Source: a virus. From it: DNA of 21,601 nucleotides. The position numbers were made by a program, and so were the translations under genes. Location of the stretch: IMG/VR virus record IMGVR_UViG_3300033979_000092, positions 1-21,601 of that record; one strand, 5' to 3'. The notes below the pieces were generated by a model. That model saw only the letters and a program-made list of their open reading frames with translations, did not search any database and was not told the origin of the DNA. Positions 1,091-2,189 of the stretch are shown here, piece after piece. Within the stretch, counting starts at the first letter, position 1. Each line of letters begins with the position of its first letter.

Positions 1091-1456
1091 TCAGTCGAGC
1101 ACGGGTGTATAGGTTTCGTCGCAAACCAGCGCCTTTGCGTCCTCCACAGACCGCGCTACGCCAGCGATCCCGCCTGCAGCCTGGACCGCATCCAGCCACT
1201 GCTGCTGCTCTGGCCTGAGCCTGCCGGTTGGGGTCTTGACCTCGATGCTGGTAAACACCGCGATGCGCTGACCGACCATCTCCTGAGTGACCGTGACCGT
1301 GCGCCAGCCGATCAGGTCAGCGCTGCCTTTGCATAGCCCAAACTGCACTGGGCGGCCGTTGGCGTCGCGCAGGGTGCCTGTGTTATTGCGGAAGACCTTG
1401 GTATCACCGTGGCTGATGGCTAGCCGGATCTCCTGCTGGATGCGCTGCTCGGTCAC
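1091..1456 (-). CDS. VRR-NUC domain nuclease (121 aa)
   Basis: A GTG start at 1456 gives 121 residues that are nearly all VRR-NUC domain, a stand-alone PD-(D/E)XK nuclease common in phages. The visible core is KGSADLIGW (D47), then IEVKTPTGRLRPEQQQWLDA with E72, K74 and Q84, then QAAGG, the usual end of the domain. Stand-alone VRR-NUC proteins cut branched or flap DNA and act as Holliday-junction-resolvase-like enzymes in recombination or replication fork repair. The gene overlaps the end of the methyltransferase by 53 bases in another frame, which suggests coupled translation. A weak GAAAG stretch is the only possible ribosome-binding site. The family call is firm; the exact DNA substrate is inferred. 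Confidence 0.9.
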   Translation of the reverse strand: MTEQRIQQEIRLAISHGDTKVFRNNTGTLRDANGRPVQFGLCKGSADLIGWRTVTVTQEMVGQRIAVFTSIEVKTPTGRLRPEQQQWLDAVQAAGGIAGVARSVEDAKALVCDETYTPVLD

Positions 1457-2189
1457 TTTCTAGCTCTAGCACTCGCGCTAATGGTATGGCGGCGACTTGT
1501 GGGACAACAGAATTGCCTAAGCATCTAATACGGTCCACCCGATTGGATAGCCCATCATCTCCTCTAAAAAGGAGGGGTTTAGATACATAGCTCCTCCATT
1601 CTGGGCTGAGCATCGTGTGACCAGAACTCCAGCTAGGCGACTTTTTTTCGCAAGTTTTTCGTAATTCACCTTCTCGCCCGAGTCCTTGTGGTCCCGAGCT
1701 GTTGGGGTAGGCAACAAGCCACCATCGGTCTCTACGGTGACAGGCTCCCAAATCCGAAGCGCGTATGCATGACCATTCAGCGTCATACCCTGCCTCGGCC
1801 AATTCTCCGAGTACGACTCCAAGTCCGTTAGTAACGATTGCTGCGACGTTTTCCAAGACGACGTATTTCGGTCGTACCAAGCGAATGACGCGGATGAGTT
1901 CATAAAAAAGTCCAGATCGAGTTCCTTGTTTAATGCCCGCTTGGCGACCAGCAAGACTGATGTCTTGGCAGGGAAAGCCCCCGCAGATTACATCAGCACT
2001 AAATGGCTTTGGGTTAAAAGTTTGAATATCGCCATGAATCGGAACACTTGGCCAATGTTGATTCAAGATCCTTTGACAGTAAGGATCCCATTCAATAAAT
2101 TGAACAGTTTCAAAGCCACAGAGAATGTGTTCAGCGGCATAAGAAAAGCCTCCGATTCCTGAAAATGTATCAAGTAAACGCAGTTTCAT
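1404..2189 (-). CDS. C5-cytosine DNA methyltransferase (Dcm-type, 261 aa)
   Basis: The ATG at 2189 starts MKLRLLDTFSGIGGFSYAAE, which is motif I for SAM binding. Next come motif IV GGFPCQDIS with the catalytic cysteine (C74), motif VI VLENVAA (113-115), motif VIII CHRRDRWWLVAYPN (150-163) and a motif X-like LGNSVVPQVA (224-233). It transfers a methyl group from SAM to carbon 5 of cytosine in a specific site. At 261 residues it is short, because the stretch between VIII and X, where target recognition normally sits, is only about 60 residues and no classical motif IX is seen in this frame. A TTG start at 2243 is possible but adds nothing family-like. Residues 79-224 are overlapped by a second open frame (see 1517-1954). 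Likely role: protecting phage DNA from host restriction, or part of a restriction-modification-like pair with the 199-aa neighbour. Confidence 0.9.
   Translation of the reverse strand: MKLRLLDTFSGIGGFSYAAEHILCGFETVQFIEWDPYCQRILNQHWPSVPIHGDIQTFNPKPFSADVICGGFPCQDISLAGRQAGIKQGTRSGLFYELIRVIRLVRPKYVVLENVAAIVTNGLGVVLGELAEAGYDAEWSCIRASDLGACHRRDRWWLVAYPNSSGPQGLGREGELRKTCEKKSPSWSSGHTMLSPEWRSYVSKPLLFRGDDGLSNRVDRIRCLGNSVVPQVAAIPLARVLELESDRAAHPAGDPASHQPR
1517..1954 (-). CDS. Alternate-frame protein embedded in the methyltransferase gene
   Basis: This frame, shifted by one base relative to the methyltransferase on the same strand, is open for 145 codons from TTG 1954; an internal ATG lies at 1903. The product is not noise. 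It contains SSWKTSQQSLL, then ENWPRQGMTLNGHAYAL, then GGLLPTPTARDHKDSG, and ends with LNPSFLEEMMGYPIGWT. I recall phage proteins with the same series of blocks (SSWKTSQ, FSETWPRSGMTRNG, LPTPTA, LNPxxVExLMGFPxGWT), often annotated loosely as methyltransferase. The final block also resembles methyltransferase motif IX (LTPxExxRLQGFPDxW). It may be a separate product, or a target-recognition segment reached by frameshifting. The coding potential is visible; translation and function are inferred. Confidence 0.55.
   Translation of the reverse strand: MLVAKRALNKELDLDFFMNSSASFAWYDRNTSSWKTSQQSLLTDLESYSENWPRQGMTLNGHAYALRIWEPVTVETDGGLLPTPTARDHKDSGEKVNYEKLAKKSRLAGVLVTRCSAQNGGAMYLNPSFLEEMMGYPIGWTVLDA

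Follow-up and report, generated by a model that had tools for sequence, protein, structure and literature searches.

The window analysed here is the whole 21,601-base stretch of a virus record (IMG/VR IMGVR_UViG_3300033979_000092), and on its minus strand lies a gene for a C5 cytosine DNA methyltransferase, termed frame A, within which a second open reading frame, frame B, is read in +1 relative to A (Table 1). An earlier note on this DNA had described both frames together with a series of blocks encoded by them, and all of these are present on the minus strand where it had placed them. Frame B is open from the codon after a TAA down to 1517 and its translation includes SFAWYDRNTSSWKTSQQ, SENWPRQGMTLNGHAYAL, GLLPTPTARD, and LNPSFLEEMMGYPIGWT, with a proposed N-terminus of MNSSASFAWYD... 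The base-for-base pairings of the two frames are also exact, in that GELAEAGYDAEW of frame A (codons 128–139) becomes SENWPRQGMTLNG in frame B, LVAYPN (158–163) becomes LLPTPT, and DDGLSNRVD (211–219) becomes MMGYPIGWT.

Table 1. Coordinates of frames A and B and of the sequence blocks that they encode
Feature	Positions	Strand	Description or basis
Frame A, C5 cytosine DNA methyltransferase	1404..2189	minus	ATG at 2189, 261 aa, stop codon included
A motif IV, catalytic PCQ	1965..1973	minus	translation
A motif VI, ENV	1845..1853	minus	translation
A motif VIII, HRRDR	1725..1739	minus	translation
A motif X, LGNSVVPQ	1497..1520	minus	translation; starts where B stops; synonymous variation resumes here
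Frame B, nested CDS in +1 relative to A	1517..1903	minus	128 aa and a stop codon; ATG at 1903 as proposed start
B N-terminal block, SFAWYDxxTSSWKTSQ ... SENWPRQGMTLNGHAYAL	1745..1885	minus	over A motifs VI to VIII; alignments A1 and A6; entropy below the shuffle null
B GLLPTPTARD block	1691..1720	minus	overlies the last part of A motif VIII and the variable linker
B LNPSFLEEMMGYPIGWT block, motif IX equivalent	1532..1582	minus	in relatives this block is found in frame A, ahead of motif X; hhalign E=7.9e-15 for B 49-142
Upstream part of the ORF of the earlier note, TTG at 1954 to the ATG	1904..1954	minus	probably untranslated in frame B; variation at third positions of A is normal as far as codon 92
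Proposed B start, ATG (1903-1901) and GGA (1913-1911)	1901..1913	minus	GGA seven bases upstream

Frame A is a C5 methyltransferase, as it matches PF00145 (E=9.8e-43; Pfam search) and carries motifs I, IV (PCQ), VI (ENV), VIII (RxR), and X (GN). It also matches phrog_363 (E=2.8e-70; PHROG search), and a profile of 90 A proteins aligns to residues 7–319 of M.HhaI (E=1.2e-43). Within motif IV, P and C are invariant in alignment A2 and Q is present in at least 90%. Motifs I to VIII and X are found in frame A, where no IX-type block is recognised; in the window the chain of frame A lacks the combination of motif IX and a TRD, the IX-type block being read in +1. Between motifs VIII and X the A protein shows little conservation, and this segment resembles a linker with a sequence dictated by B. 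At one of the related loci examined (L130) an IX block and a pre-X block are both in frame A, and hence the pre-X block of the window is not IX.

Two further open reading frames adjoin A on the minus strand. That at 2191–2790 encodes 199 residues with a D...E-x-K pattern and ends just before the ATG of A. It is weakly similar to PDDEXK_14 (E=0.048), lies upstream of A in all six close relatives (L001–L006), and was found at E<=1e-5 in none of the other loci examined, a set with many short flanks; it is possibly a nuclease partner of the methyltransferase. The other (1091–1456) encodes a VRR-NUC domain protein (E=5e-12) and overlaps the 3′ end of A.

Frame B of the window matches phrog_1008 (E=5e-19), a family labeled ‘DNA methyltransferase’ that is matched by all 93 members of the B alignment A4, and it has no match in Pfam or NCBIfam at E<=1. 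The 93 members gave only single-member matches to Pfam, with E values of 0.015 or worse. No PDB sequence is matched by the B profile at E<=10, so that no solved structure is matched by sequence, and the AlphaFold2 model of B is poor (pLDDT 57, pTM 0.21). Alignments A4 and A6 omit L009, L012, L019, L040, L058, L062, and L072, in which B is broken or atypical, L034 and L061, which are too long, and the near-copies L002, L087, L094, and L100, and A6 additionally omits L010–L025; alignment A7 omits nine near-copies, chains of more than 640 residues, L249, and L258.

Both frames are under protein-level selection. The estimate in the earlier note that 145 stop-free codons have a chance of about 0.001 is right for uniform codons (0.00095), and a stricter null was obtained by shuffling the codons of A among identical amino acids, so that the A protein and its codon usage are kept. 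By this measure the +1 frame over A codons 96–223 of the window is stop-free in a fraction of 0.0002 of 5000 shuffles, with 5.7 stops expected. Across 103 loci (80 found through A and 23 through B, with L009, L014, and L019 left out), there are 6 stops in the +1 frame over A codons 91–220 compared with 355 expected from shuffles, while the +2 frame over the same codons has 680 observed and 680 expected. In 30 control loci with PF00145, which are ordinary C5 methyltransferases taken one from each of 30 Pseudomonadota genomes, the +1 frame has 380 stops observed and 399 expected, and the B HMM finds a single weak match of 13 bits. A domain-based count gives 1 stop compared with 436 in 105 loci (L019 left out), and involves some circularity, since matches on stop-free ORFs had set the domain limits; the counts in A coordinates (103 loci and 30 control loci) are thus the ones to trust. 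The B HMM scores a mean of 123 bits on 80 held-out loci and 35 bits on their shuffles, and none of the 80 was reached by any of its own 20 shuffles. Mainly between A codons 98 and 221, B has a lower entropy than A would impose on it. At many codons (for example 131, 162, 164, 205, and 215) conservation is higher in B than in A, including several within the GLLPTPTARD block (161, 162, 164, and 168) at which the commonest residue of B is more frequent than that of A. Hence the second frame has the property of a nested overlapping gene, that of being under protein-level selection inside another gene. As observations on individual loci, L058 has one stop inside B, and in L025, L072, L073, and L101 there are stops in the B frame upstream of or in the start of the N-terminal block, so that B begins late.

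The extent of B can be read from synonymous variation in A. In the window clade, which consists of the window and L001–L006 (21 pairs, with L001 and L002 being close), fourfold-degenerate sites of A differ at a frequency of 0.560 in codons 3–94, 0.079 in codons 96–222, and 0.645 in codons 224–245. Likewise, among six clade members the third position of A is variable in 67 of 90 codons from 3 to 92, in 30 of 130 from 93 to 222, and in 23 of 25 from 223 to 247; codons 123–127 and 148–152, inside the overlap, still vary (4/5 and 3/5, respectively). The constraint in this clade is bounded by the start and stop codons of B. The earlier note had begun the frame at TTG 1954, a position that probably needs correction, as third-position variation is not reduced upstream of 1903 and the constraint begins near the ATG there. 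The drop at codon 93 fits a start at ATG 1903 and a B protein of 128 residues ending at 1517. The ATG is present in all six of the clade members shown and the GGA in five of them, and since GGA alone serves as a Shine-Dalgarno sequence, the start signal in the window itself is weak.

Two further clades have constraint edges close to their own, different starts and stops of B, with the constraint being patchy. In the L277 clade fourfold differences fall to 0/55 in the 16 codons that follow a different B methionine (codon 47), they return to 25/56 after the B stop, and variable patches occur within the overlap, for example at codons 81–88 and 217–238. In the L130 clade fourfold differences fall from about codon 110, near yet another B methionine, at 103, and rise around the B stop at 280, again with patches within. 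Some starts are preceded by better ribosome-binding sequences than that of the window. In 52 of 134 non-redundant loci (of 152, with 18 near-copies left out) the longest Shine-Dalgarno match close to a B-frame start has 5–6 bases, compared with 26 expected from shuffles that ignore stops. Matches of at least 5 bases occur at similar rates per start codon in the +2 frame (0.107) and in B (0.098), and the support that they give to independent initiation of B is therefore moderate. In several loci, such as L073, L118, and L130, a Shine-Dalgarno sequence of 5–6 bases stands just before the start that follows a B-frame stop, for example AAAGGAG before TAG-ATG in L073 and GGGGAGGG before a GTG in L118.

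Frame B is widely distributed. A tblastn search with B at E<=0.01 matched 176 of 50,697 phage records, all at less than 60% identity, and the A query matched 1,149 phage records at E<=1e-10, which indicates that at this sensitivity B is unseen in most records with a related A. The carrier phages have cyanobacteria, proteobacteria, actinobacteria, and Bacteroidota as hosts. Among 16 phage regions chosen from the B matches, B is in +1 of A in 15, the exception being that of Mycobacterium phage Llama (L019), in which an indel displaces both A and B part-way. The displaced gene of Llama is annotated as two ‘DNA methyltransferase’ genes, and other records share the two-piece match. A search of IMG/VR with the A alignment found B in +1 in 80 of 80 viral loci (the best 80 of 599), a set that is not a random sample of methyltransferases since the alignment was built from loci with B. 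In 77 of these best 80 the IX block is in +1 and motif X in frame 0, and the other three have displaced frames; taken separately, motif X is in frame 0 in 77 and the IX-type block in +1 in 78, as judged with a profile made from B proteins that would miss an unlike IX.

Prokaryotic loci found through B show the same arrangement in 33 of 34 cases (29 of 30 distinct places). Within one bacterial phylum, 27 of the 398 genomes sampled gave matches to B, one of which (L193) did not hold up. When the A gene of a Salmonella phage was used as a DNA query, four of 5426 E. coli genomes were matched, at 75% or 94.5% identity, and the one of these four that was viewed adjoins an integrase and an excisionase gene. 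In the annotation of E. coli strain PCP07014 (L227, 4001–4762), A is listed as a pseudogene that has an internal stop. None of the 53 B-selected viral and genome loci has B without an A-type region, and none of the 34 prokaryotic loci does, with L193 showing neither A nor B; a truncated locus, L140, has A and no B. In a later frame survey no catalytic match was obtained for L117, L123, L192, and L193, the first two of which start inside the gene and had earlier been matched to the C-terminal part of A, as L192 had also been matched. Wherever it is detected in an unbroken locus, the N-terminal block of B is in +1 to an A-type catalytic region. The earlier note had suggested that a second protein is embedded in the gene and that the overlap is conserved in other phages, and it had named three observations that would speak against this, namely frequent alternate-frame stops in homologues, normal synonymous variation over the overlap, and matches limited to close copies of this gene. 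None of the three is seen. The low number of +1 stops, the strongly reduced synonymous change, and a constraint bounded by the start and stop of B bear out the embedded protein, and matches far beyond close copies, together with the 80 of 80 A-selected loci (best 80 of 599), bear out its conservation in distant phages.

What B might contribute is suggested by relatives in which its segments are found in the other frame. In L001, phrog_1008 matches the N-terminal and TPTA parts of B, then IX, and then motif X of A. A block of the LNPDWVEWLMGYP type is in frame A just before motif X in L130–L132, L134–L136, L138, L139, and L158, and in L145, L146, L148–L153, and L155 a B-like stretch from TPTA to IX follows in frame A near the end of the B ORF. 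The arrangement in Streptomyces phage Samy (L012) is different, as A ends after motif VIII and B, which overlaps A in +1 by about 300 bases, extends with TPTA repeats, IX, and X. Of the 40 loci L231–L270, 29 have a detected N-terminal block, in each case in +1 relative to the catalytic frame. The block went undetected in +1 in L234, L239, L256, and L272, which have a P.SGM..G.AY-like segment and TPTA in frame A after motif VIII, followed there by IX and X where the contig reaches them. The N-terminal profile matches L239 modestly (E=0.00016 among 267 segments), and with L234, L256, and L272 no match passed 0.1.

A comparison by hhalign of the B profile with 35 chains that have the blocks in frame A, five of which come from loci where no N-terminal block was detected, gives a probability of 98.4 (E=7.9e-15) and aligns B residues 49–142 to the VIII-to-IX region of the in-frame chains. 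Judged by sequence, the in-frame chains have a homologue of the second half of B between their motifs VIII and X. The first 48 residues of B have no counterpart in the in-frame chains, and the first half of the N-terminal block, with SSWKTSQ, is unaligned. The chain profile places LNPxF..MGxP and GN opposite residues 270–309 of M.HhaI (the IX–X region) in a weak stretch of 1.5 bits that is not significant alone. The similarity of the last block of B to motif IX that the earlier note had remarked on is strengthened by these results, since in relatives this block is encoded in frame A ahead of motif X, and it lies within the hhalign alignment. The predicted structure of L234 (pLDDT 76, pTM 0.77, with residues 161–169 and 204–259 below 50) has M.HhaI as its best match (E=2.9e-14, TM 0.53, rmsd 12.5), the recognition region not being resolved in the model. 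From the homology of the in-frame chains and this likeness in fold, A is most likely the equivalent of the large domain of a C5 methyltransferase, and B that of its small, target-recognising domain. The N-terminal block of B is nevertheless kept where IX and X are both present in A alone, as in L130, L145, and others. A model in which B does nothing except supply IX does not need that block in such loci, and hence the N-terminal and TPTA parts of B must matter by themselves. Two kinds of variation in B were also observed. In L061 (2059–4470) and L099 (2125–4887) its open frame of 804 and 921 codons, respectively, runs past the end of A (3089 and 2906) to the end of the DNA, a possible fusion of B to a downstream protein. 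In L059 and L070 a TPTA-type segment, PTI(K/N)GNYNKAGLSAKSGDGLATAV, is upstream of the N-terminal block of B, and A is longer there too in L070, as if recognition repeats move within the overlap.

We propose, with a probability of about 80%, that both subunits of a C5 methyltransferase are encoded by this single phage gene, in frames that overlap, with B being made from its own ATG and paired with A. Frame A would provide the catalytic large domain with motifs I–VIII and X, and frame B would be a 128-residue small-domain protein that supplies the recognition segments (WPRSGM..NG..Y and LLPTPTARD) and motif IX. Translation of B may begin at the internal ATG at 1903 on the mRNA of A, the two proteins would bind each other to form a single enzyme for which both are needed, and the assembled enzyme would be expected to methylate cytosine at a specific target site, probably thereby protecting the phage DNA from host restriction. 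By an alternative route of expression, B would be joined to motifs I–IV of A by a +1 ribosomal frameshift or by transcriptional slippage near codon 95. The six-T run (CTT TTT T) before the ATG is invariant in the six sequences shown and permits +1 re-pairing, and the Shine-Dalgarno sequence of the window is weak, but such a fusion product would be without motifs VI and VIII. Moreover, L008 and L010 do not have the ATG and B is still conserved, with S-F-T in place of F-F-M implying that the T run is broken too. The N-terminal part of B overlaps motifs VI–VIII of A base for base, and one polypeptide therefore cannot carry both. Starts of B that differ between lineages, with constraint edges near each, favor a separate polypeptide, and the ribosome-binding sequences that follow B-frame stops in L073, L118, and L130 also argue against a frameshift, which we consider very unlikely. 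Of the proposal in the earlier note that a shifted product supplies the recognition part, the supply by B as a separate polypeptide with its own start is what would stand, and the frameshifted fusion is not retained.

It is also unlikely, if somewhat less so, that B, although a genuine nested protein, has a different task, for example that of a regulator or an anti-restriction protein, and is not a subunit of the methyltransferase. Such a task would account for its first 48 residues, which are absent from the in-frame chains, and for the persistence of its N-terminal block where A already has IX and X. It would not explain the homology of the second half of B to the VIII–X region of the in-frame chains, the switching of the IX and TPTA segments between frames in relatives, or that B does not occur apart from an A-type region in the loci examined. 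There remains the view that the open frame is a shadow of the conservation of A, of base composition, or of RNA structure, and that B is not a protein. Some blocks of B are indeed forced by A, such as G at codon 139 and xSPAKTS under GGFPCQDIS of motif IV, the conservation of which we discount as evidence for B. However, a shadow, or chance, is ruled out for practical purposes by the codon-shuffle, +2-frame, and ordinary-methyltransferase controls, as all 80 held-out loci exceed their own 20 shuffles, conservation at codons such as 131, 162, 205, and 215 is greater in B than in A, stops are not depleted in the +2 frame or in ordinary C5 methyltransferases, and the constraint follows the start and stop of B. 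The two-subunit methyltransferase is thus the reading that we prefer.

As to its origin, one tentative and rather doubtful scenario is that the recognition part arose when the catalytic domain was overprinted in its +1 frame, became a nested subunit in phages of many hosts, and later escaped into single-chain enzymes, in which P.SGM..G.AY.LP and then LLPTPTA follow motif VIII (clearly in L239 and more loosely in L234, L256, and L272), with segments moving between frames by frame-changing indels.

In most of the records examined, annotation covers only half of the arrangement. Among 16 phage records, picked for diversity and not at random, the annotated CDS correspond only to A in 11 (in two pieces in one of them), only to B in three (L014, L017, and L021), to both frames in one (L012), and to neither in one (L025). 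Since only one of the two frames is annotated in 14 of the 16, the ‘DNA methylases’ of phages may be recorded as half an enzyme, and cloning of A alone may give an inactive protein or one with the wrong specificity. More generally, this is a same-strand gene within a gene, of about 130 codons or more, that is kept in phages of diverse hosts. Its frame-switching relatives offer a way to ask how an overprinted domain arises and whether an overlap can be left, and natural pairs of large-domain and small-domain proteins could help work on split methyltransferases.

M.EcoHK31I is a restriction-modification enzyme whose two genes overlap in different frames, whereas the carriers found here are mostly phages. 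M.AquI and M.EcoHK31I are described as natural C5 enzymes made of two polypeptides. In M.EcoHK31I (YGGCCR) one chain has motifs I–VIII, X, and a predicted TRD while the other has IX alone (PMC3404938). By this description the division of motifs is the same as in the window, with I–VIII and X on the large and IX on the small subunit, here as read from the reading frames alone, and an apparent difference is that the predicted TRD of M.EcoHK31I is in the large subunit while the TRD-like TPTARD and WPRSGM segments of the window are in B. Its small subunit is compared with B here by description. M.AquI (CYCGRG), as described in the same source, is also a C5 methyltransferase in two polypeptides, alpha and beta, and is split after motif VIII so that the small subunit has IX, X, and half of the variable region (PMC3404938). 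The window is not of this type, as its motif X is in frame A; Streptomyces phage Samy, the B of which carries both IX and X, is closer to M.AquI as so described. In M.HhaI and the other single-chain C5 enzymes (PF00145) both domains are in one frame, with no conservation of the +1 frame in the 30 loci tested; the A profile aligns over M.HhaI 7–319, and the IX-type block falls, weakly (1.5 bits), opposite its motif IX region. The label of phrog_1008 is silent on members that are nested in +1 of another methyltransferase, and no mention of this family was found in the open-licence literature, the sole string match being to a longer phrog number. The ShiLan domain, an out-of-frame HNH endonuclease in a phage methylase gene, figures in a 2025 study of hidden reading frames (PMC11855218), and in the available part of that study B is not described. 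It is likewise an alternate-frame protein inside a phage methylase gene, and differs, as far as that part describes it, in being an inserted homing element, while B overlaps the catalytic motifs themselves and, in the window, has no Pfam match at E<=1. An overlapping frame like B in phage methyltransferases was not found in those parts of the open-licence literature to which we had access. On the available descriptions M.EcoHK31I is hence the closest known case, and what is different or new here compared with it is the breadth of the distribution, the nested +1 coding, and the switching of recognition segments between frames.
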